From positions 1 through 60,132 of the forward strand of contig VGVX01000008.1 in NCBI GenBank assembly GCA_016873845.1: 60,132 nucleotides of DNA. The letters run 5' to 3'. Origin of the DNA: Ignavibacteria bacterium (GTDB lineage Bacteria; Bacteroidota; Ignavibacteria; Ch128b). Positions 47,234 to 59,857 of this stretch are shown piece by piece. The first letter of the stretch is position 1. Every line of letters begins with the position of its first letter. Position numbers and translations under genes: made by a program. The notes below the pieces were generated by a model, which saw only the letters and a list, made by a program, of their open reading frames with translations, did no database searches and had not been told where the DNA came from.

Positions 47234-47932
47234 TTATTCCGTACCGGACGCCTCCGATTCTGCTGTTGACCTCTTTTTCTTTTTAACTATTAATATTATC
47301 CAAATTACGACTATTAATAAAATTCCAAGGATAATTATAATATCGCTGAATGAACTTAACTTCTGAATTTTAATAGTAGCTGTAAGATTTTTTTGCGTTC
47401 CGAGTTCACTCAGTTTATAACTCCAAGTGAGTTTATTATCATCTTTGCGGATTGAATTGTCTGTAATCACCTCACCAGGAAAATAATAGATATACGATAT
47501 TGTATACCGATCAAAAATTCTCTCGCCGCCAGGAGTATTACTTATAGATTGATTAAAAACTTTTTGACCAGAGGCGCCATCTACAAACTCAAACTTTGTT
47601 TCGCTGAAGAACTTACATTCGCTGATCTTATTAAAATCCTCAAACTTTAGTTTGATAAGAGCATGTCCGATACTGTCAGAATTTGTTTTCCAAATTTTTA
47701 TTTCATTTACCTCTATGCCTGCGGCAGAAAAGTTTTTTCTGATCTGCTCTTCTTTGAAGGAGAGTTGTTCTTCATTAGAATCACTTAGGAAAAAACTCGA
47801 GACATCAGTCCAATAATGAACTTCCATGCTGCCGCTGCCGTCAGAATTGAGCCAGGTTGTTTGCTCATAATTTATACAACTTGAAATAAAAAGTAATGTA
47901 AATAGAAGAAAAATTGCTGCTGATTTTTTCAT
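47234..47932 (-). CDS. Membrane-anchored lipoprotein, unknown function
   Basis: 232 residues from ATG 47932, which has a GGGAG site; the frame upstream is unlikely to be translated. FLLFTLLFISSC is a lipobox, so the protein is cut and lipid-modified at Cys. The soluble part has YEQTTWLNSDGSGSMEVHYW and GERIFDRYTISYIYYFPGEV, like LppM/DUF3153-type proteins, and a single membrane helix near the C-terminus (IIIILGILLIVVIWIILIV) is followed by a basic stretch. The combination of a lipid anchor and a C-terminal helix is that of the LppM/DUF3153 group; function unknown. Confidence 0.65.
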   Translation of the reverse strand: MKKSAAIFLLFTLLFISSCINYEQTTWLNSDGSGSMEVHYWTDVSSFFLSDSNEEQLSFKEEQIRKNFSAAGIEVNEIKIWKTNSDSIGHALIKLKFEDFNKISECKFFSETKFEFVDGASGQKVFNQSISNTPGGERIFDRYTISYIYYFPGEVITDNSIRKDDNKLTWSYKLSELGTQKNLTATIKIQKLSSFSDIIIILGILLIVVIWIILIVKKKKRSTAESEASGTE

Positions 47933-48228
47933 GTGTTCACTCCCTCGTTCTCTCACAATGGTAAGTTTACGACTTTATAAATCTTATTTCAACTGAATTC
48001 TTAAGAAGGTTTATCTTCGCATTAATATCATTAATATAAGAATGAATCCATCTCGTGAAGGCTAGTCTCTCGCAAAGTGAACAAAGGTGTGATCATCAAT
48101 TTTACATGGGGGCTGAGTTGAAGAATTTTCGATTTGGAAAACAAGAACTATTCAATAATGAATAAAACAAAGACTTGATTTAATGATTAAAATTCCAAAT
48201 TTTTGCACCGTTTAATTAAAGGAATTCA

Positions 48229-48513
48229 ATGCCGACATATGATTATAAATGCTCGTTCTGCTCAAACGTGTTTGAAGTGTTTCATGGAATTAATGAAACT
48301 CCTGATATTAACTGTCCAGAATGCAGCAACCGAGCGAAGAAACATATTAGTTTAAATTCAGGAATAATTTTTAAAGGATCAGGATTTTATATAACAGATT
48401 ATAAAAATAATACTAATTCAAAAAGCTCTGCGCAAAAACCTGAATCAAAAGCAGGGACAAAACCTAAGCCTGAAACAAAGAGTGAAAAAAAAGAACTCAA
48501 AGCTGACGCTTAA
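48229..48513 (+). CDS. FmdB-family zinc ribbon protein
   Basis: 94 residues. MPTYDYKCSFCSNVFEVFHGINETPDINCPECSNRAKKHISLNSGIIFKGSGFYITDY is the whole FmdB-type domain with two CxxC knuckles. The C-terminal third is lysine- and serine-rich and low in complexity. FmdB-like proteins are of uncertain role, possibly regulatory. The last four bases overlap the convergent Omp85-fusion gene. Confidence 0.9.
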   Translation: MPTYDYKCSFCSNVFEVFHGINETPDINCPECSNRAKKHISLNSGIIFKGSGFYITDYKNNTNSKSSAQKPESKAGTKPKPETKSEKKELKADA

Positions 48514-51500
48514 AGGTCAGCTCCGAGTGATAAATAAAATTTTGAAGGAGAAAACTTCTGCAAGTCGTAATTCCAAGCAATATCAAACTTCAGCATAAAA
48601 CCTAAAAAGTAAATTCTCGTTCCGATACCCATTCCCATCAATAGATCTTTTGTTTGAATATTACCTGAAGAATTCCTAATCGTTCCTCGGAAGTCAAGTG
48701 TGTTGTTCCATGCTCCACCGATATCAAAAAACGCCACTCCTTGAATGTTCTGGAATAAAAGCGGAATTGGACTTGCGAGTAGATATTTTACCAATGGAAA
48801 ATGTAATTCGAGATTAAGTAAACCAAATTTACTCCCCAATCTGTGCGCATAATTAAATCCTCTAAGAGGAAGTGCCGGCGTTAGAAATAGAAAATCTTCT
48901 GCTGACTCAATTGGTATTTCATTCTGTTCAAATTGACGATTGATCCAATTATCTGTACCGCCAAGCATAAATTTCTGTGGATTCCTACCGAAGCTGTATC
49001 CGCCTGATAATCTGACTGTAAAAGAATAATCACTGAAGAATTTGAAATATGTTCTGTAATCTCCAGTTAGAGTTCCAAAGCTAAGTGCATCTTTTGAAAA
49101 TCCAGGAACTCCCAATAACGTAAAATTATATCTTGTACCTCTTGCAGGAGAAGTATAGCCCCAAAGTGAATTATCGTGTACAAAACTTAGCGATGGAATT
49201 AAAAGCGAAAGCTTCTCGCTGTCTTCATCTAATAATTCTAAATTATCACGTTTTACATTTAACCAGCTCAGTCCGCCATCGATTCGATAGAACTTATCAA
49301 TTGGATAAGTCGCTGAATAATAAAATCCGTAGTTTCTATAACGATACCAATAATACTGCCCACGAGAGATCTGCCACAAAAACCGAGCAGTATGGAATCC
49401 TTGAATTCCGTGATCAATTCTGTTTGGCAGGTAATAATAGGCCAATCCATAATCACTATTTTTTAGATCAATCTGCAAACTTGTAACGCCGATTATTTGG
49501 TGATCGCCCATTAAATCACTGAATGCAAGAACGGTGGTTCCCAGCAAACCGTAAAACGTATTGTATCCAGCATTTGCATAAATAATATCTGGGGAGAAAT
49601 TAATTTTATATTTATTGATGATGAAATTCCCTTCTGAGTCTCTCCTATCACCAATTAAAAATATTGAATCACGATTAATTTTTTCTTGTGTGATTAATTT
49701 ATCGTTGAAAATATAATTACTGAAATCAGTCCGTACGTTCTGTCCGAAGACGTTAGCTGTATCAATCATATTACCGGTGCTTATCTCAACAGATTCGCCA
49801 AATTGAATTACAACATTTTGCGACGGAGTATCTTTCTTTGTAGAAGTTGTATCAACCGGTTTACTCATTTTTTCTGTAAAATATTTTGTTGGTTCAAGAA
49901 CAGAAAGTTCGAGATTTCTTTCCAATGGATTGGTCATAAGAAAAAGATTGTAAGCAGACTTGTACATTGATGAGAAAGCAAGTTTTTTGCCATCACTCGA
50001 AAGAGATATTTGATACAATCCATTTATTGAGTTTGTAAGCGGTTTGATGTCTTCAGCACTTCTAATTAAGACTTTATAGCTTTCATCGAATCGAACATTT
50101 GAAAGGTCTTTATAATAGACATTGTTAATTCCATTAACATCAGAAATAAAGTATAGACCGTTTCCGTTGCGTGTCGGTACAACAAATTGCTCATCGCTCA
50201 TGGGTAAATCTGTAATTCTAAAGATTTCCTTCGATGTAATATCAATTCGATAAATATCTTCTTGATAGAAATCGTGGTTCACCATATCGAGAAAATATTC
50301 TCGTGTATCTTTACCTGTAAATTTTCCACGATCTGAAGAAAAGTAAACTGCACTACCATCTGCAGAGAATGCTGGTTCAGAATCGCTGAATATATCGTCA
50401 GTTAAATTAACCGTTTCTTTCTTATCTATATTATGGACATAAATATCAGATTGATGATTGAATAAACCTACGAATGCAATATGTTTTCCATCCGGCGACC
50501 AGTCGACAGAAAATATTCCATCCATATTAACTTCAAGTCGCTCCATATCTTCGGATTCGACATCAATAACAAAAATAGCATCATGCGAACCGGCTTTTGA
50601 GGCAATTGCGATTTTCTTCCCGTCAGGCGACCAAGTTAATCCCGGAGTAAGAATATGAAGTTCTTCAAAATTGTTCGTTGCATTTCCTTTGATGATCTTC
50701 TTTAAAATTTTACCGTCGGAGGCAGACATTATGAATACATCGAAATAATCATCGCGGTTTGAAATGAACGCAATTCGATCTCCTTGAGGTGAAATTGCGG
50801 GACTTGTATTATAAAATCCACCATCTTTCAAATGATCAGTAAGTTTTTTTGCGAAATCTGCAGGTTCTTCCCGAGTTGCAACATCAGGCCAATAATTAAT
50901 TTTTTGTTCTTTCATCCATTTTTCGGAAAGCTCTTCGATACTGAATCCTAATGCTGCTTTGAAGCCGTTCTCAAAATTGCCGGTGCCCCGGATTTTTGTT
51001 AAAATCTCTCCAACTTTTTCCTTTCCATATTTTTTGGCGATGTACCACCAAACCGATTGCCCGCCGCGATAAGCGAAATATCCATTTAAAAATTTAATCG
51101 GCGGTAGATTTTCATTTATTGAGACATCACGCATGAACATATCTGTGTTAGAATCCCAGCCAAGAGATTCATACTCCGCGAGCCCTTCATTGAACCAAAG
51201 AGGCAGAGCCAATGTGATGTTATTTGAGATTACATTTTGAAGCGAGCCGCCGTAGAACATATCATTAATAACAGCATGCACAAGTTCATGATGAAGTACG
51301 TGACGGAACTGCGAATACGATCCTTCAAATGGGACGACAATTCTATTCTTAAATAATTCAGTGACTCCGCCAATTCCTTCTTCCATATATTCGCTGATCA
51401 CATTTGTCTGCTGGAAGTCGTTATGACTATTATATATAACGAATGAAATTCGAGCGTTTATATTAAACCGAAAACTTTTTTGTATAGATACTAAAGCAGA

Positions 51501-51689
51501 TTCGGCCACAACTGCTGCAAATGAAGCAAGCCTCTCTCCCCCCTCTGTGAAGTAAACATCGAAATGCTCAGATTGGATGAATGAATAATTAAACTTTTTG
51601 TACTGGACTTTATTTCTGCCGAACTGCGCGTATGATGCGGAAGAAAAAACCAGTAAAAGCAGAACTAAAATTTTTAATGAACTTTTCAT
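48510..51689 (-). CDS. Metallopeptidase-like, TolB-propeller and Omp85-barrel fusion protein
   Basis: 1059 residues from ATG 51689, signal peptide ILVLLLLVFSSASYAQ. Residues 25-270 resemble a peptidase MA-like gluzincin: HHELVH (about 133-138) with WFNEGLAEYES as the third ligand region. Residues 285-560 are PD40/TolB-type blades (GDRIAFISNRDDYFDVFIMSASDGK, SPDGKKIAIASKAGS, SPDGKHIAFVG, SADGSAVYFSSDRGK). Residues 700-1059 are an Omp85-type barrel: LRGFNYAHRLGSKFGLLNLELHFPL contains the (V/L)RGF loop-6 motif, and the end FMLKFDIAWNYDLQKFSPSKFYLSLGADL is the final strand. POTRA domains are absent. It follows rnr and tamB on the same strand and may serve TamB or export proteins. Confidence 0.85.
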   Translation of the reverse strand: MKSSLKILVLLLLVFSSASYAQFGRNKVQYKKFNYSFIQSEHFDVYFTEGGERLASFAAVVAESALVSIQKSFRFNINARISFVIYNSHNDFQQTNVISEYMEEGIGGVTELFKNRIVVPFEGSYSQFRHVLHHELVHAVINDMFYGGSLQNVISNNITLALPLWFNEGLAEYESLGWDSNTDMFMRDVSINENLPPIKFLNGYFAYRGGQSVWWYIAKKYGKEKVGEILTKIRGTGNFENGFKAALGFSIEELSEKWMKEQKINYWPDVATREEPADFAKKLTDHLKDGGFYNTSPAISPQGDRIAFISNRDDYFDVFIMSASDGKILKKIIKGNATNNFEELHILTPGLTWSPDGKKIAIASKAGSHDAIFVIDVESEDMERLEVNMDGIFSVDWSPDGKHIAFVGLFNHQSDIYVHNIDKKETVNLTDDIFSDSEPAFSADGSAVYFSSDRGKFTGKDTREYFLDMVNHDFYQEDIYRIDITSKEIFRITDLPMSDEQFVVPTRNGNGLYFISDVNGINNVYYKDLSNVRFDESYKVLIRSAEDIKPLTNSINGLYQISLSSDGKKLAFSSMYKSAYNLFLMTNPLERNLELSVLEPTKYFTEKMSKPVDTTSTKKDTPSQNVVIQFGESVEISTGNMIDTANVFGQNVRTDFSNYIFNDKLITQEKINRDSIFLIGDRRDSEGNFIINKYKINFSPDIIYANAGYNTFYGLLGTTVLAFSDLMGDHQIIGVTSLQIDLKNSDYGLAYYYLPNRIDHGIQGFHTARFLWQISRGQYYWYRYRNYGFYYSATYPIDKFYRIDGGLSWLNVKRDNLELLDEDSEKLSLLIPSLSFVHDNSLWGYTSPARGTRYNFTLLGVPGFSKDALSFGTLTGDYRTYFKFFSDYSFTVRLSGGYSFGRNPQKFMLGGTDNWINRQFEQNEIPIESAEDFLFLTPALPLRGFNYAHRLGSKFGLLNLELHFPLVKYLLASPIPLLFQNIQGVAFFDIGGAWNNTLDFRGTIRNSSGNIQTKDLLMGMGIGTRIYFLGFMLKFDIAWNYDLQKFSPSKFYLSLGADL

Positions 51690-51740
51690 GGACAATTCTT
51701 TTTTTTTCTTGAACTCATCCTAAATAAACTAAGTTTCAGA

Positions 51741-53852
51741 CTAATCAACAAGCTCAAAATCTATCTCGTTCCGATCTTCGTTAATGTCTATCACTTTCAC
51801 GCGGACTTTATCACCAAGTCTAAATGAAGTTTTTTCCAACCTCCCGAATAAAGTATATTTTTTCTCATCATAAAAATATATATCCGAAGGGAGATTTTTA
51901 ATATGAATCAAACCTTCAACTAAAATCTCATTCAGCTCGACGAAAAGACCGAACGACTGTACACCTGAAATTATTCCATCGTACTCTTTACCGAGATGAT
52001 TTTTTATATACTCAATTTGTTTCTTTTTAATGGATTCACGTTCTGCTTCCATCGCAAGGCGTTCAGAAGCAGAGTTTTGCTTGCATATTGCAGGAAGTTT
52101 TTTCTTATACTTTTGAACATCTTTCAGTTTGCTCCCGCTTTCATATATAAACAATAGACGATGAGCGATCAAATCGGGATACCGTCTGATAGGTGAAGTG
52201 AAATGAGAATAATCTCTGAAAGCCAGCCCATAGTGCCCGATATTTTGATCTGAATATTCCGCTTTTGCCATCGAACGGATCATCACTTCATTAACCAGCA
52301 CTTCTTCAGGTTTAGTGCGCACTTGCTCGATCAATTTCTGAAGTGATTTAGATTTGACACCCCCGGTTACATTTAATTTATATCCGAGAGTCTTAACAAA
52401 ATCTGCTAGCTCTTTGATTTTAACTTCATCCGGTACGTCATGCACCCTATAAACGAATGGAAAAGATTTTTTATCTAAATAAAATTTCCCTTTCTGTGCG
52501 ACTAATTTGTTTGCAAGTAGCATGAAGTCTTCAATAAGTCTATGACTTTGCAATCGAACTTTTTTGATAATTTCGAGCGGCTGACCTTTTTCGCTCATTT
52601 TAAATTTAATTTCATCGGTGATAAAATCTATTCCACCGCTTCTGATTCGCTTCTTTAAAAGTAATTTTGCCAGTTCGTTCAGCTGAAGAATTTCTTTTAC
52701 ACAATCTCCTTTTTGAGTTTCTATAATTTCTTGAGCTTCATCGTAAGTGAATCTTCTTTTATTATTAATAACAGTCTTTTTCACTTCAAAACTTTTTACT
52801 TCTGCTTTATCAGTCATCGTAATTAAAACAGAAAAGCAGAGTCTGTCTTCACCTGGGACTAAGCTGCACCAATTATTCGAAAGCTCTTCGGGCAGCATTG
52901 GAATTACCTGATTCACAAGATAAACACTCGTTCCGCGCAGCATAGCTTCTTTATCTAATTCAGAGTTTTCTTTTACGAAAAAACTTACATCGGCAATATG
53001 AACGCCGACTAGAAAAGTTTTGTCGTCAATTGCTTCAATTGAAAGAGCGTCATCAAAATCTTTTGCATCTTCAGGATCGATGGTGATAATCGTTTTATCT
53101 CTCAAATCCAATCGATTGGGAATTTCTTGTTCTATATCTTTCTTCGAAAATGCAGAAGCTTCGAGTTCAATAGATTTCGGAAATTTTGTTCTCAGATTGA
53201 ATGATTTTGCAATTGCGAGCATTTCGGCTTTATTGTCACCGACACTTCCAAGCACCTCAACAATTTCCCCGATCGGATTCGACGCGGGCGAAGTCCACTC
53301 AGTTAATTTTACAACTACCTTGCTTCCCGTATCAGCTCCATTCAATTTATCTGAGGAAACAAATATATCACGGTGGATAAACTTTTCGTCAAGCACAACG
53401 AAATTGAATCTCTTCGATTTATGGAGCGTTCCAACAAATTCATCTTTTTTTCTTTGAGTTACTTCAACGATTGCTCCTTCAGGTCTTCGTTTTCGGTTTC
53501 GTGCAAATAATTCGACCATAACCTCATCGCCATGAAAAGCTGTGCCGAGATTTCGCTCCGAGATGTAAATATCTTCCAGCCCTTCTAACTTTGGAATTAC
53601 AAAGCCATAACCGTATCGAGTTACCTCAAGTCTGCCTGCGATTTGATTTTTATCATGAAGGAGTGTATATCGTTTCCCTTTTCTGTTAAGTTTACCTGAT
53701 GAAAAAAGTGTGTGCAAAGTTTCTTTCAGCAGAGAATAATCTTTATCAGAATTTATTTGCAGCCGTTTGGCAATATCTTTTGTTTTCAATCCTCTGACTG
53801 GACTTGATTTTACAAGCTCAACTATTTGTTTTTCTATTTTATTTTTTTTCAT
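51741..53852 (-). CDS. rnr: Ribonuclease R
   Basis: 703 residues. N-terminal helix-turn-helix-like domain (KIEKQIVELVKSSPVRGLKTKDIAKRL), cold-shock OB domains (RYGYGFVIPKLEGLEDIYISERNLGTAFHGDEVMVELF), the RNB domain with DLRDKTIITIDPEDAKDFDDALSIE (catalytic Asp cluster) and HYGLAFRDYSHFTSPIRRYPDLIAHRLL, and a C-terminal S1 domain (GIISGVQSFGLFVELNEILVEGLIHI). It degrades structured RNA from 3' ends. It starts three bases after the tamB stop. Confidence 0.95.
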   Translation of the reverse strand: MKKNKIEKQIVELVKSSPVRGLKTKDIAKRLQINSDKDYSLLKETLHTLFSSGKLNRKGKRYTLLHDKNQIAGRLEVTRYGYGFVIPKLEGLEDIYISERNLGTAFHGDEVMVELFARNRKRRPEGAIVEVTQRKKDEFVGTLHKSKRFNFVVLDEKFIHRDIFVSSDKLNGADTGSKVVVKLTEWTSPASNPIGEIVEVLGSVGDNKAEMLAIAKSFNLRTKFPKSIELEASAFSKKDIEQEIPNRLDLRDKTIITIDPEDAKDFDDALSIEAIDDKTFLVGVHIADVSFFVKENSELDKEAMLRGTSVYLVNQVIPMLPEELSNNWCSLVPGEDRLCFSVLITMTDKAEVKSFEVKKTVINNKRRFTYDEAQEIIETQKGDCVKEILQLNELAKLLLKKRIRSGGIDFITDEIKFKMSEKGQPLEIIKKVRLQSHRLIEDFMLLANKLVAQKGKFYLDKKSFPFVYRVHDVPDEVKIKELADFVKTLGYKLNVTGGVKSKSLQKLIEQVRTKPEEVLVNEVMIRSMAKAEYSDQNIGHYGLAFRDYSHFTSPIRRYPDLIAHRLLFIYESGSKLKDVQKYKKKLPAICKQNSASERLAMEAERESIKKKQIEYIKNHLGKEYDGIISGVQSFGLFVELNEILVEGLIHIKNLPSDIYFYDEKKYTLFGRLEKTSFRLGDKVRVKVIDINEDRNEIDFELVD

Positions 53853-53855
53853 AAA

Positions 53856-56800
53856 TCAAAATTCGAATTTATATTTTAAACCTATTTCATTAATCATTTC
53901 TTCCTGCCTTGCAGATTGTATTGACGCTTGCTTTCTCTCAAGCCGAATATAGAATCGTTCGGTTACCGGATACTCCAACTGTATATTTGCCAATCCGATA
54001 TTTTGAAATGCTTCTGCATCACCGCCGACTTTGAATCTGATGTTTTCAACTTTTCCCTCAACATTGAACTTAGTCGTTTCGCCGACTTTCTTAATTTCTA
54101 CTGTTCGCAGTACGTCACCAAGAATTTGATTTGCAAAGTTCGCAACTACTGAACCGAGCAGCGACGTCGCCGCATTTCCAAATACTCCTCCCAGAGAACC
54201 TGCAGCATTGTTTTTATCCTGAGCAGTTAAATCTTCTTTAAATTTTCCAAGAAGAACAAAAGCAACTACATCCGACGCATCTTTATTATTATCAACAACC
54301 CCATCGATTGATACTTCAATGTTATCAGGATTGTTAACAAGATTCTTCGCCAGCTCCCGAACTGTTCCTTCCAGTTTCAATTTTATTGTAACTAATTTAT
54401 AATCTGTCGAAAGAGTATCTCCGCTTATATAATAGTCTTTGAAAGTCGCAGTGACATTTAAAAATGGATTTGATAGCTCACGTTCAAATCGAAGAGTTCC
54501 TTCGGCATTAAATCTCTGATAAAAATTCAAGTAGCTTTCATCAGTCAGTTCAATTTCGCCTTGAGTAAAGGTTTGTTTATTGCTGACATCGACAAGAATT
54601 TCACCTTTCAGATCGGCAAAAAGCTTTTGATTCAATTCTCTGCTGAAGATGAATTGAACATTCACATTGTTCTTCAAAATTATTTTCATTCGAACAGAAA
54701 AATTCGGGAACAATCCTTTGTCGGGTGAAATTTTATTTTTCTCATTCTTGCGTATGGATTTTTCAGCTTCTTTAAATGCGAGGTCAACAGAATCAATTTG
54801 CTCATTTTTATTTATAAATCGGTAAGTGAAACCCTCTCGTTCAATTTGGTACTGAGTTTCAAACTGGGGAATGGTTAGGGATGTTTCTTTGATATAGAGG
54901 TCTCCGGTTAGAGAAGAATAATTTTTATCCCCAAAAATCCTAATCGGTGTGCTCGTTTCAAGAACTAAATCTCCATAAACAATCGGACTTACTGATTTTG
55001 ATTCACTTGAGAGAACCATCAGCGAGCCGTTTGAAGTGAAATCAAATTTTTTAATTTCGAATTTATCCAAATCAATAAATCCGCTCGCAATGATAGTCCC
55101 TCCTTTACTTCCGACGTTTTGATTTGAGACCTTCAATTCTGTCAATTCGATTTTATCTCGAGCAAATTGAACTTCTGCCGAGCCAAGATATTTCAAGTTG
55201 TTTTGGGCAATTTGAAGAATTGTGTTTTCAACTTTCAGAAGACCATTCATAATTGGCTCATCGTAAGTGCCAACCAAACTTATATCACCATTAGCAAATC
55301 CAGCAATATTTTTTAGCTGCGGAATGAAAGCCTGAAGCGGCGTGAGATTGAATTTATTCAAACTTAGAATAACTAAGATATCTTTTTGGGGTATTAATCT
55401 ATCATTAACTGAACTGAAAGATAGATCTATCGGCAGTTTCCCAAGGAGCGAAAAATCCTGTCCCTCGTAGATCGTGTCAGCATATTGCACATTGATGCTG
55501 AGAAGTTTGCTCTGATAGTCGACCTTTCCCTGAAGTTCGCCTAGTCGATTCGAGTTAATGCTAAGATCAGACAAGGAAATATTAGACTTAATGATCGGTT
55601 CATCTGCATTTCCAAGAAGTTCGGCAGAGAGCGAGATGTTTCCCGAAACTAGATTTTGATTTTCGGGAATAAAGTTTCTTATTATATCTTCGACATCGAT
55701 ACCATTAGCAGTTAAATAGAGCTTTTGATTTCCCTCCAGTCCGACTTCACCGCTTAATTTAATTCTTTCACGTTTTCTTCTAAGCGTAAAATTTTCAAAT
55801 TCAATTTTATCTTTGTTAAAAGAAAATTGCAGCGGTCCTTCGTTAGTGATCTTGTACTTTTTAATTTCTACTGTCGCACTCTTTATGTTCGCTTGATAAG
55901 TTGGATTCGAAATATCAACTTCGCCCTCTGAACGAATTTTAATAATGGAGTCGATTTCTGATATGATACGATACTTAAAATTATTCGGATCAATCTCTGC
56001 TGCAAGATCAAAATTTTCAATTTGATTGTTGTAGATAATTTGATCGGCAGATGCATTGACCTTAGCAGCCATTCTTCTGCCATTTTCTACTTTATTCGAT
56101 TTGTTAAAGGTAAACGAAATATCTCCCCCTTTTATTCTTCGGGACATATCAGCATCGATCAGCCAGAAGTTTTCCAATTTATTAACTGCACTTAGCTGAA
56201 ACGAATCTTCGTTATTTTTTACAACACCTTTAATGTCTCCATCGATCTTTAAGCTTAAACCTTTTGCAAATATGCTTATTAGATCAAACTCACGGAACTT
56301 AATATTAAAAGATAGATTAAAATTCTTTTCAGAAATTAATTTCGGTCTATCCGCTTGAGCTTTGCGGTGAGAGATTTTTTGACCAATTTTTGTCGCTGAA
56401 ATCGTATCAGTTATAAATGCAACAGGATTGAATGACTTCAGTTTACTTTGAATTTCTTTTTCAATCTCCTTTAGATTTTTTGGAACTGTTTCGGCGAGAT
56501 CGCTGATCAAGAAATCACCGGTGATATCGATGTCAGTGAAATCCGATCTCAGTTTTATCGAACGATAATTCTCTTTAAGCCCTGTCAACAAGAGTTCAAT
56601 CTTTGATTCAGGAATTTGAACATCATTCACTACTGAATTCAGGAAATCAATATTAAAGTATGAATTCATTTTTTCGATTTCGAAAGATTCACCGCGAATA
56701 TTCGCAATGAAATTCAAGTTGCTTCTATAATCCCTTAATCCGATATTTTCATCAAGATCAAGATTGGATGAGGCGAATGCGAAATCATACTTTGGCAGAT

Positions 56801-58382
56801 CTTTTTCTCGAAAGTCAAACCTGCCCTCAAGAGCAATATTTGTTTTCTTATTTACTGCGCCAAAAGAAATATCAAAAATTTTATTCTTTGCATCGATCCA
56901 GACAGAAGATGAATCAATTTTATTTCCAGCGATTGTAGAGTTATGCAATTTTGCTCTGATCTCTGAATGTATCTCCTCAGGTGAAAATCCTTTTCCTTCA
57001 ACTGCAACAGTCCCGTTCAAACGTGAATCAATTCCGGCAAATGTCTTTAAGTTAAAATTGTGTAGGTTTAATTTCGCTCTGTACTCAGCTATCGATTTAT
57101 TGAAATCAAATTTCGCATCCCCTTGAATTTCCCCTTGCGAAGAATTTATTTTCATCTTTGCAGCGAAGTTTGCCGGTTCACCTGAATATTCAGCAGAGAG
57201 TTCCACTACTCCAAGTCCATCAAATTTCGGTATTCCATACAATGGAAGAAGCTTATTCACGTCATCCATTGCGAAAGTGCTTTTATCAATTTTTGCGTTG
57301 ATATAAAGCTTGTCGGGAGAATTTAAATTTAGAATTTTTGCTGTCGCATTAAGTGTAGTCTCTCCAAGGTTTATTCGAAGTTTAGCAACATTTAAATTTC
57401 CAAATTCTCCGCTGGCTGTCATGTTTAAACTAGCGTTACCCTTAAGCATATCAACTTGCGGGACCCAAGTTTTCAGATCATTAAACTCAAATGAGTTCGC
57501 CTCGAGACTTGCCTCAACGTATTTGTTCTCCAATCCTTCATATGAAAAATCGCTGAATAGATTCAGATCTTTAATTCTCGCAATCAGATTTAAATTCGTT
57601 TGATCTGTTGTCATATAGAATTTTTTAATACGCGCTTCTTTTTCGCTGACTGTTGCCGTCAAATTAAAATCACGTAATGTAAAGTTCTCGGCATTTGTCT
57701 TAAACCGGAAATTGCTGATATCCAGCCTAGCAGAATTTTTCTTCATAGAGACATCTGCTGCAAGCTGAAGATTCAAATCCAAAATTGTTAAATCAGAAAA
57801 ATTTAGAGTCTCATAAATACTATGCGAGAGATAACTTTCTGAGTCAATATTTTCTTTTATCCTAAAAGTGCATCGCTGCAATTCGAAGTTCTTCAGTTTA
57901 ATATCGTAATCGAACGGCACCGCTTCAGTTGTATCGGGTAAAGATGGATGCTTTATAACATTTTCAAAAATCCATTTATCATTTTCTAATTTAACCAAAT
58001 TTATTTCTGCTTCTTCGAATATGAGATTCTTAATAGAAATAGTTTTTCCGAGTAGGGCAATAGGATTTAGAGAAAGATAAATTCCTTCCGCTTTTATTAG
58101 GTCAACACCTGCAACATTGTATCGGACACCTCTCAGAGAAACATTTGTCACAAGCGTGCCGTAAATATTTTCAATCTCAATCTTTCCGTTGAGTTCTTTT
58201 TCCGCAAGAGAAATAATTTCATCCCGCAGATAATTTCTGAAAGTTGCTGTTTGAGAAAATCCAAGCAAAACGAGGAGCAAAACGAACAGAGTGATCAAAA
58301 ATTTTCCAAGCGCATGAAAAATTTTATAAGAAAGCGATCTGTGCCGGAGTCTGTGCTTGCTGTCCTTCCTGAAAAACTTCAT
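53856..58382 (-). CDS. tamB: Translocation and assembly module protein TamB
   Basis: 1508 residues. One N-terminal membrane helix (FHALGKFLITLFVLLLVLLGFS, about 23-44) anchors a very long beta-taco of repeated strands, as in AsmA/TamB proteins (KIEIENIYGTLVTNVSLRGVRYNVAGVDLI at the N-terminal end). The last 350 residues are the DUF490 domain: FADLKGEILVDVSNKQTFTQGEIELTDESYLNFYQRF, DYYISGDTLSTDYKLVTIKLKLEGTV, DVVAFVLLGKFKEDL, ending IGLKYKFEF. TamB spans the periplasm and transports lipids or helps outer-membrane assembly with an Omp85 partner. It lies directly behind the heptose genes and before rnr and the Omp85 fusion gene. Confidence 0.9.
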   Translation of the reverse strand: MKFFRKDSKHRLRHRSLSYKIFHALGKFLITLFVLLLVLLGFSQTATFRNYLRDEIISLAEKELNGKIEIENIYGTLVTNVSLRGVRYNVAGVDLIKAEGIYLSLNPIALLGKTISIKNLIFEEAEINLVKLENDKWIFENVIKHPSLPDTTEAVPFDYDIKLKNFELQRCTFRIKENIDSESYLSHSIYETLNFSDLTILDLNLQLAADVSMKKNSARLDISNFRFKTNAENFTLRDFNLTATVSEKEARIKKFYMTTDQTNLNLIARIKDLNLFSDFSYEGLENKYVEASLEANSFEFNDLKTWVPQVDMLKGNASLNMTASGEFGNLNVAKLRINLGETTLNATAKILNLNSPDKLYINAKIDKSTFAMDDVNKLLPLYGIPKFDGLGVVELSAEYSGEPANFAAKMKINSSQGEIQGDAKFDFNKSIAEYRAKLNLHNFNLKTFAGIDSRLNGTVAVEGKGFSPEEIHSEIRAKLHNSTIAGNKIDSSSVWIDAKNKIFDISFGAVNKKTNIALEGRFDFREKDLPKYDFAFASSNLDLDENIGLRDYRSNLNFIANIRGESFEIEKMNSYFNIDFLNSVVNDVQIPESKIELLLTGLKENYRSIKLRSDFTDIDITGDFLISDLAETVPKNLKEIEKEIQSKLKSFNPVAFITDTISATKIGQKISHRKAQADRPKLISEKNFNLSFNIKFREFDLISIFAKGLSLKIDGDIKGVVKNNEDSFQLSAVNKLENFWLIDADMSRRIKGGDISFTFNKSNKVENGRRMAAKVNASADQIIYNNQIENFDLAAEIDPNNFKYRIISEIDSIIKIRSEGEVDISNPTYQANIKSATVEIKKYKITNEGPLQFSFNKDKIEFENFTLRRKRERIKLSGEVGLEGNQKLYLTANGIDVEDIIRNFIPENQNLVSGNISLSAELLGNADEPIIKSNISLSDLSINSNRLGELQGKVDYQSKLLSINVQYADTIYEGQDFSLLGKLPIDLSFSSVNDRLIPQKDILVILSLNKFNLTPLQAFIPQLKNIAGFANGDISLVGTYDEPIMNGLLKVENTILQIAQNNLKYLGSAEVQFARDKIELTELKVSNQNVGSKGGTIIASGFIDLDKFEIKKFDFTSNGSLMVLSSESKSVSPIVYGDLVLETSTPIRIFGDKNYSSLTGDLYIKETSLTIPQFETQYQIEREGFTYRFINKNEQIDSVDLAFKEAEKSIRKNEKNKISPDKGLFPNFSVRMKIILKNNVNVQFIFSRELNQKLFADLKGEILVDVSNKQTFTQGEIELTDESYLNFYQRFNAEGTLRFERELSNPFLNVTATFKDYYISGDTLSTDYKLVTIKLKLEGTVRELAKNLVNNPDNIEVSIDGVVDNNKDASDVVAFVLLGKFKEDLTAQDKNNAAGSLGGVFGNAATSLLGSVVANFANQILGDVLRTVEIKKVGETTKFNVEGKVENIRFKVGGDAEAFQNIGLANIQLEYPVTERFYIRLERKQASIQSARQEEMINEIGLKYKFEF

Positions 58383-58386
58383 CGAA

Positions 58387-58866
58387 TTAGAGTCTCTTTA
58401 TCTTTTCTAAAATCGATGAGGTGGAATAATTATCTACGTACTTCAGAGAATAGACTTTTCCGCCATTGTTTTCGACAATATCTCTTCCGACGATTTGATC
58501 GATCTTCCAATCGCCTCCTTTAACTAAAATATCCGGAACTACTTTCGATATAATTTCAAATGGAGTTTCTTCATTAAAACTTATGACAAAGTCTACACAC
58601 TTAAAATTCGAAAGTACAAATGCACGGTCGATTAAACTTACTACGGGCCTGCCTTGACCTTTTAGTTTTCTAACTGAGCTATCTGAATTCAATGCGACAA
58701 CGAGTGCATCGCCAAGCTCTTTTGCCCTTGTCAGATAATCCACATGCCCGCGGTGAATAATATCAAAGCAGCCATTTGTGAAAACAAGTTTTTTATTTTC
58801 TTGACGCAGCGATCCTCTGATCTTCAAAAATTCATCAAGCTCTAGTAATCCGATTCTCGATTGCAT
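58387..58866 (-). CDS. rfaE2: D-glycero-beta-D-manno-heptose 1-phosphate adenylyltransferase
   Basis: 159 residues. VFTNGCFDIIHRGHVDYLTRAKELGDALVVALNSDSSVRKLKGQGRPVVSLIDRA is the cytidylyltransferase-type core with the HxGH motif, and GGDWKIDQIVGRDIVENNGGKVYSLKYVDNYSTSSIL is the C-terminal part of HldE. It makes ADP-heptose for lipopolysaccharide core. It is separated from the kinase gene by one base, so HldE is split into two proteins here. Confidence 0.92.
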   Translation of the reverse strand: MQSRIGLLELDEFLKIRGSLRQENKKLVFTNGCFDIIHRGHVDYLTRAKELGDALVVALNSDSSVRKLKGQGRPVVSLIDRAFVLSNFKCVDFVISFNEETPFEIISKVVPDILVKGGDWKIDQIVGRDIVENNGGKVYSLKYVDNYSTSSILEKIKRL

Positions 58867-58867
58867 G

Positions 58868-59857
58868 TTACATCGCCATCAAATTTTTGAATAGGTAGTC
58901 TTTATCAATCGGAACGATTCCGACTTCTTCGCACACAAGCCCTGCAGCAAGATTTGCGATTGTTGCAGCTTCTTTAATATCCGCACCTGCCGCCAGTGCC
59001 ATTGAAAGTGTTGCAATCACTGTATCCCCTGCACCGGAAACATCTGCAACTTTTCGAGCTTTGGTTGGAATTGAATCGAATTTATCTACAGATGTGAGAA
59101 GCGACATTCCCTTTTCACCGCGAGTTAGCAGTACGCAATCAGGATTTAGTTTCTCTTTCAATGCTTTGCAAGCTTGAAAAACCGTTTCATCCGACGTTAA
59201 TTTTGTTGCGAGAATATCTTCTGTCTCTTTTTTGTTCGGTTTGAAGACTGTTACGTTTTTGTATTCAAAGAAATTATCGAATTTGGGATCAACCGTTACA
59301 AAAATTTTGTTCTCATTGGCAAGCTTGATAACTTTTTTAATCAAACTTTTTGTCAGCACGCCTTTGTTGTAATCTTCGAGAATAATTCCTTTCAAGTCTT
59401 TGAGGTGTGAGTTGAGGTATTTTAGAATTTTGTTTTCAAAATCTTCCGAAATATCTTTTCTGTCTTCTTTGTCAATTCTAACTACATGCTGGCTGTGTGC
59501 AATGATCCGTGTTTTGACCGTCGTCGGTCTCTCTTCATCAACGAAAATCCCATCTTTAATAAAATCATTTTCTTCGAGGAGAGAATCAAAAATAGAAGCT
59601 TCTCTATCGTAACCTATAACACCAATCAGAAGCGGAATCCCGCCAAGAGATTTGATATTTAATCCAACATTCGCTGCACCGCCGAACCGATAAGATTCTT
59701 CTTCAACATCAACAACGGGAACCGGGGCTTCGGGAGAAATCCTTCCGACCTTACCCCAGATATAAACATCGAGCATCAAGTCGCCTATAACAGCAATTTT
59801 TTTGTCATTCAATCCTTTGAAAATTGTCTCGATACGCTCATTTGAAAACTGTACCAA
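58868..59857 (-). CDS. rfaE1: D-glycero-beta-D-manno-heptose-7-phosphate kinase
   Basis: 329 residues, a PfkB-family kinase. KKIAVIGDLMLDVYIWGKVGRISPEAPVPVVDVEEESYRFGGAANVGLNIKSLGG and the end ADVSGAGDTVIATLSMALAAGADIKEAATIANLAAGLVCEEVGI with the GAGD anion hole and base are as in the kinase half of HldE. It forms heptose 1,7-bisphosphate. It precedes the adenylyltransferase gene in one transcript. Confidence 0.93.
   Translation of the reverse strand: MVQFSNERIETIFKGLNDKKIAVIGDLMLDVYIWGKVGRISPEAPVPVVDVEEESYRFGGAANVGLNIKSLGGIPLLIGVIGYDREASIFDSLLEENDFIKDGIFVDEERPTTVKTRIIAHSQHVVRIDKEDRKDISEDFENKILKYLNSHLKDLKGIILEDYNKGVLTKSLIKKVIKLANENKIFVTVDPKFDNFFEYKNVTVFKPNKKETEDILATKLTSDETVFQACKALKEKLNPDCVLLTRGEKGMSLLTSVDKFDSIPTKARKVADVSGAGDTVIATLSMALAAGADIKEAATIANLAAGLVCEEVGIVPIDKDYLFKNLMAM

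Follow-up and report, generated by a model that had tools for sequence, protein, structure and literature searches.

A zinc peptidase-propeller-Omp85 fusion protein encoded close to tamB in Bacteroidota and Krumholzibacteriota, a candidate accessory component of outer-membrane assembly

The window analysed here, positions 1-60,132 of contig VGVX01000008.1 of the Ignavibacteria bacterium assembly GCA_016873845.1, encodes close to a tamB-like gene a fusion protein of unusual composition. Behind a signal peptide lies a zinc peptidase of the gluzincin type; then come a TolB-like β-propeller, a disordered linker and an Omp85 barrel of 16 strands. Tentatively, we read this protein as an outer-membrane Omp85-type barrel with a periplasmic propeller and an active gluzincin-type zinc endopeptidase, which would act as an accessory subunit of the translocation and assembly module (TAM) beside a POTRA-bearing TamA or TamL where the gene order is kept. 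That the fusion stands next to tamB in two bacterial groups far removed from each other suggests a part of the outer membrane that handles proteins and has not been described. The assembly comprises 2.98 Mb in 162 contigs, and its closest named relatives are Ignavibacteria/Bacteroidota metagenome-assembled genomes.

Domain organization and predicted structure

Pfam, AlphaFold2 and Foldseek agree on the organization that the first-pass annotation of the window, made without database searches, had read from the letters: a peptidase domain with HELVH and EGLAE motifs, a PD40 propeller and a C-terminal Omp85 barrel with an LRGF motif. In Pfam, the protein matches Peptidase_MA_2 with 53.8 bits (cut-off 32.4; residues 64-261 when numbered from an alternative TTG start) and PD40 in five stretches with 79.8 bits, above the cut-off. 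The Omp85 family PF01103 was located at the 3' part of the gene by a whole-genome search (39.7 bits, cut-off 24). The NCBIfam TolB model TIGR02800 covers the propeller part only and reaches 109.9 bits against a cut-off of 343.15, which does not make the protein a member of TolB. No match to the TamA or TamL models of NCBIfam was obtained, and a Pfam scan detected no patatin domain, so that the fusion belongs neither to TamA/TamL nor to the PlpD type. The absence of POTRA domains, also noted in the first reading, holds both in the Pfam scan and in the AlphaFold2 model.

The AlphaFold2 model of the whole fusion, built on 77 relatives, has a predicted local distance difference test score (pLDDT) of 86 and a predicted template modelling score (pTM) of 0.85. 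A helical N-terminal domain comes first, then the propeller (residues ~283-600); residues 613-679 form a disordered linker, and the 16 strands of the barrel run from residue 699 to residue 1055. The LRGF motif (942-945) sits between barrel strands 11 and 12, in the loop equivalent to loop 6 of BamA. A Foldseek search of the PDB with this model returned TolB first, and BamA and TamA were among the best matches. The protein belongs to the Omp85 superfamily by its PF01103 match, its 16 strands and the RG[FY] motif that the loop joining strands 11 and 12 carries.

When the N-terminal domain was modelled alone (pLDDT 89.7), its best 50 Foldseek matches were solely gluzincins: the peptidase units of M9 collagenases, M1 aminopeptidases, LTA4 hydrolase and M61 enzymes. 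Structure comparison was needed to place the domain, since a search with the peptidase profile against the sequences of solved structures gave a collagenase as the single, weak match (E = 0.23). An HExxH motif with a downstream glutamate as zinc ligand, carried on a gluzincin fold, assigns the domain to clan MA, and the predicted structure thus contains both the gluzincin fold and the Omp85 barrel expected from the letters. The fold and the layout of the zinc site are shared with the M9 and M1 units, but identity in the structural matches is 10-17%, and the unit in the fusion has 260 residues and lacks their accessory domains.

Conservation of the zinc site

The zinc-site residues H134, E135, H138 and E168 are unchanged in all 151 relatives compared, which span Bacteroidota, Zixibacteria, Krumholzibacteriota and Aminicenantes/Acidobacteriota and some of which are only ~25% identical. 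Nine of the 261 positions of the peptidase domain are strictly invariant, and these four are among them (probability by chance ~7e-7). Among the domains, the peptidase is conserved best in the Bacteroidota clade, with a mean identity of 58% as compared to 46% for propeller and barrel, while the Krumholzibacteriota proteins show hardly any difference between peptidase and barrel (53% and 52%, respectively). The linker, at 21-25% mean identity, is together with the signal peptide the least conserved segment. In the LRGF motif, the arginine is kept in 149 and the glycine in 147 of the 151 relatives.

Because the zinc site is invariant across relatives of such low identity, the N-terminal domain is likely to be an active zinc enzyme; an invariant site in a highly conserved peptidase domain is the pattern that catalysis predicts. 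More distant relatives, at loci L074:4375-7575(+) and L075:5798-9055(+), carry HEYTH or HEFTH with a longer gap to an EGTA motif and represent a further type of the family.

Gene order around tamB

The fusion is present in all 61 Ignavibacteria genomes sampled. At 19 of the 59 loci that could be resolved, distributed over six families, tamB lies 2.1-2.7 kb upstream on the same strand with rnr in between. The same order of tamB, rnr and fusion is found in several Bacteroidota families outside Ignavibacteria; in two of these the Pfam TamB domain was confirmed (108.6 and 131.1 bits), and in the others tamB was assigned from size, position and weak similarity. The tamB of the window is, by its sequence, a divergent one, since the Pfam TamB domain PF04357 has no match anywhere in this genome. 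Its identity rests on matches to NCBIfam TamB (112 bits, under the cut-off of 825) and to the Pfam AsmA family PF05170 (36.9 bits), and on orthologues in which PF04357 is found. PF04357, being silent here, was not used alone for judging linkage to tamB. A search of the genome with the window's TamB returned only itself and hence no second close copy.

In Krumholzibacteriota, where gene order was counted with tblastn, the fusion directly follows tamB, without rnr, at all 42 loci examined, and the gaps are mostly below 120 bp. At nearly all of those loci whose contig extends far enough, a POTRA-Omp85 precedes tamB; it is BamA-like in NCBIfam, above the cut-off. Apart from it, these genomes carry a longer Omp85, similar in size to BamA; the POTRA-Omp85 ahead of tamB is therefore a second Omp85, in the TAM position.

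The only neighbour common to the Bacteroidota and Krumholzibacteriota settings is tamB. In a tree of 102 members, every tamB-linked row falls within two main clades, and two other clades, that of a 945-aa paralogue and that of the Acidobacteriota type, are never linked to tamB. No tamB was found near the Acidobacteriota/Aminicenantes and Zixibacteria members in the sequence stretches examined. Six Aminicenantes loci (L103, L104, L106, L107, L109 and L110) have a conserved neighbourhood of their own around a fusion of the Acidobacteriota type (clusters c16-c20), likewise with no tamB in those stretches.

Since tamB adjoins the fusion in both phyla, and in different settings, the shared neighbour lends moderate support to a partnership with TamB. 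The first-pass annotation had suggested that the fusion might be the outer-membrane partner of TamB on the strength of a single locus. The link in gene order turns out to be far older than this window, which is borne out by the six Ignavibacteria families, the other Bacteroidota and all 42 Krumholzibacteriota loci; it does not extend to the many lineages in which the fusion lies far from tamB, nor does it make the protein a substitute for TamA.

A possible role with TamB

In the scheme that we tentatively favour, TamB would deliver clients or lipids, and clients or lipoproteins travelling with it would arrive at the outer membrane. The propeller may hold clients or a partner close to the opening of the barrel, where the peptidase would trim or degrade those clients that stall or need maturation, and the barrel may serve as an Omp85-type insertion or docking site. 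Propeller and peptidase are placed on the periplasmic side by analogy, because the N-terminal parts of other Omp85 proteins and of PlpD lie there; catalysis, physical contact with TamB and any action on clients are inferred as well. A fuller version, which we regard as possible but more doubtful, holds that the fusion is a third, enzymatic TAM subunit in Bacteroidota and Krumholzibacteriota: a barrel with a built-in zinc protease and a client-binding propeller that would join TamB delivery, insertion and proteolytic quality control.

Several observations weigh against a role with TamB. In about two thirds of Ignavibacteria the fusion lies apart from tamB or on a different contig, and co-transcription is thus not a requirement. 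At 40 of the 42 Krumholzibacteriota loci (L151-L190, L098 and L099) the fusion is followed by uvrD, so that a kept gene order in this phylum says nothing specific about function. Co-occurrence is uninformative, because the fusion (61 of 61), tamB (60 of 61) and TamA-like proteins are all nearly universal in Ignavibacteria. The PF01103 score of the fusion, 39.7 bits, is also modest.

The most serious competitor we consider rather unlikely. The barrel might be mainly an anchor for a stand-alone periplasmic protease of the outer membrane that checks the quality of lipoproteins and secreted proteins or takes part in their maturation, and the proximity of tamB an inherited order without partnership. 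The distance from tamB in many lineages and the equal conservation of uvrD on the other side would be expected on this view, as would the paralogue clades that are never tamB-linked and the first rank of the peptidase in conservation among the Bacteroidota proteins; PlpD provides a precedent (PMC11116518). An inherited order, however, does not readily account for tamB alone adjoining the fusion in both phyla, and the near-invariance of the loop-6 motif and of other barrel features goes beyond the needs of an anchor.

Other Omp85 proteins of the genome

A search with PF01103 identified seven Omp85 proteins in the genome of the window: BamA with POTRA repeats, a 706-aa POTRA-Omp85, a patatin-Omp85, two more POTRA-Omp85 proteins, the fusion and its 945-aa paralogue. 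The 706-aa protein (L039:6977-9097(+)) has TamL as its best NCBIfam match, under the cut-off, and the position of its gene away from tamB fits the observation that TamL is generally encoded apart from TamB in Bacteroidota (PMC12045153). By eye, its N-terminus has no lipobox cysteine, unlike that of Flavobacterium TamL.

POTRA-bearing Omp85 proteins of the TamL/TamA-like kind coexist with the fusion in many Ignavibacteria. Our survey for TamA returned 61 of 61 genomes, a figure that takes in low-scoring BamA-sized proteins in some genomes and is not proof of TamA everywhere. In family f13 (G020, G029 and G047), a TamA-like gene adjoins tamB in converging orientation and the fusion is located elsewhere. 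Given this arrangement and the POTRA-Omp85 of the window's own genome, the fusion is an additional Omp85 and not a replacement for TamA.

The idea of the first-pass annotation that propeller and peptidase stand in for the POTRA domains of TamA, with the fusion as TamB's partner in its place, has therefore become improbable. It would explain why the fusion has no POTRA and lies near tamB and rnr in several families, but a TamL-like protein is present in the same genome and in many other Ignavibacteria, and in Krumholzibacteriota a POTRA-Omp85 stands directly upstream of tamB, within the string of tamA, tamB and fusion. Of the two patterns that it had proposed to survey, a separate POTRA-bearing Omp85 does occur, and the fusion is not always near tamB. 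A canonical TamA linked to tamB with the fusion elsewhere, which it had named as evidence against itself, is matched in part by family f13 with its TamA-like gene.

Very improbable, in our view, is a Tol-Pal-like role, in which the propeller would act as TolB and connect the outer membrane with Pal or peptidoglycan while the cell constricts. Structurally, the propeller is matched best by TolB proteins, several of them in complex with Pal, and no protein of the genome passes the TolB equivalog cut-off; but TolB propellers are common, the genome has many sub-threshold relatives, and the invariant peptidase would be left without explanation. We give least credence to a type V-like secretion in which the barrel would carry its own N-terminal peptidase, or other passengers, out to the cell surface: TpsB-type Omp85 barrels do export proteins and the long disordered linker could thread the pore, but the model shows peptidase and propeller as large domains of confidently predicted fold that come before the barrel, and for PlpD this idea has been put to the test and rejected (PMC11116518).

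Two further Omp85 genes deserve a comment. The 945-aa paralogue (L042:7250-10087(+)) also has a peptidase, a propeller and a barrel region, and its reading frame overlaps by 17 bp a gene for a PQQ/BamB-like propeller (L042:10071-11213(+)); the pair is found again at L072. The patatin protein (L040:9134-11923(+)) is a patatin-POTRA-Omp85 of the PlpD type, and two kinds of enzyme-bearing Omp85 thus coexist in this genome.

Relation to described proteins

Every diderm bacterium relies on Omp85 proteins for building its outer membrane. In 2014, Heinz and Lithgow named a WD40-Omp85 subfamily, with a TolB-like N-terminal propeller, no POTRA and an Omp85 barrel, and proposed that it is a BamA-BamB-like fusion (PMC4104836). 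Because WD40-, Metallo- and noNterm-type members without POTRA were accepted as Omp85 in their scheme, POTRA is not defining for the superfamily there (PMC4104836). The protein described here answers to the WD40-Omp85 description. The family PF00149 comprises metallophosphatases. It is this family that the 'Metallo' class carries, and the main text of the survey contains neither an HExxH peptidase (the word 'peptidase' is absent) nor a link to tamB, by which the present fusion differs (PMC4104836).

With TamA and TamL, the fusion shares the Omp85 barrel and, in Krumholzibacteriota, a gene string with tamB and a POTRA-Omp85 in the TamA position; TamA and TamL, however, have three POTRA domains, whereas the fusion lacks them, has its peptidase and propeller instead, and occurs side by side with a protein of the TamA/TamL-like kind. 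BepA differs from the fusion in being a soluble protein of its own, of the M48 type and with TPR repeats. The likeness is one of function, as BepA is a periplasmic zinc metallopeptidase that works with the β-barrel assembly machinery on stalled barrel proteins. It polices the assembly of LptD (PMC8423444). PlpD resembles the fusion in having an enzyme domain on an Omp85 barrel, in the periplasm (PMC11116518). It differs in that its enzyme is a lipase, that a single POTRA is present and that a propeller is missing.

Beyond the 2014 survey, the open literature searched held nothing on a peptidase-propeller-Omp85 protein or on a third TAM subunit, and both the peptidase and the tamB linkage of WD40-Omp85-type proteins appear to be undescribed in it. 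If our reading is correct, outer-membrane assembly outside Proteobacteria would have a proteolytic step or subunit not known from E. coli. The vague WD40-Omp85 category of 2014 would become testable, by asking what clients the peptidase cuts and whether they are delivered by TamB, and the answers would bear on the question whether TamB carries proteins, lipids or both.

Gene neighbourhood in the window

Five genes, hldE1-hldE2-tamB-rnr-fusion, follow one another on one strand with gaps of 1-51 bp, and a hairpin with a run of T overlaps the end of the fusion gene (Table 1). The natural reading is that they form one transcription unit.

Table 1. Positions in the window of the fusion gene, its domains and motifs, and its neighbours.
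Feature	Position	Strand	Remarks
Fusion gene (peptidase-propeller-Omp85)	48510..51689	-	1059 aa from ATG at 51689
Alternative fusion start	51695	-	In-frame upstream TTG; open reading frame 48510-51695(-), 1061 aa
Sec-type signal peptide, residues 1-21	51627..51689	-	By eye; cleavage after ..SASYA
Gluzincin-type zinc metallopeptidase domain, residues 22-282	50844..51626	-	Pfam Peptidase_MA_2; AlphaFold2 model; Foldseek to M9/M1/M61
HELVH motif (H134, E135, H138)	51276..51290	-	Invariant, 151/151 relatives
Third zinc ligand E168 within EGLAE	51174..51188	-	Invariant, 151/151 relatives
TolB-like β-propeller (PD40 repeats), residues 283-600	49890..50843	-	PD40 x5; TolB model below cut-off; Foldseek to TolB
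Linker, residues 601-696	49602..49889	-	Disordered 613-679; occupies the POTRA position; AlphaFold2 model
16-stranded Omp85 barrel, residues 697-1059	48513..49601	-	PF01103; AlphaFold2 model; Foldseek
LRGF loop-6 motif, residues 942-945	48855..48866	-	Sequence; AlphaFold2 model; relatives
Terminator-like hairpin	48495..48528	-	13 pairs, then TCTTTTTTTT; overlaps the end of the fusion gene
rnr, RNase R	51741..53852	-	Upstream neighbour of the fusion, gap ~51 bp; TIGR02063 752.7 bits, above cut-off
tamB-like gene, AsmA superfamily	53856..58382	-	1508 aa, ends ..KYKFEF; 3 bp from rnr
hldE domain II (heptose adenylyltransferase)	58387..58866	-	4 bp from tamB
hldE domain I (heptose kinase)	58868..59857	-	First gene of the putative transcription unit

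On the other side of the fusion, a gene at 47234-47956(-) encodes a 240-aa protein that belongs to no family; nine loci have it in this place, with the fusion on one side and prs on the other.

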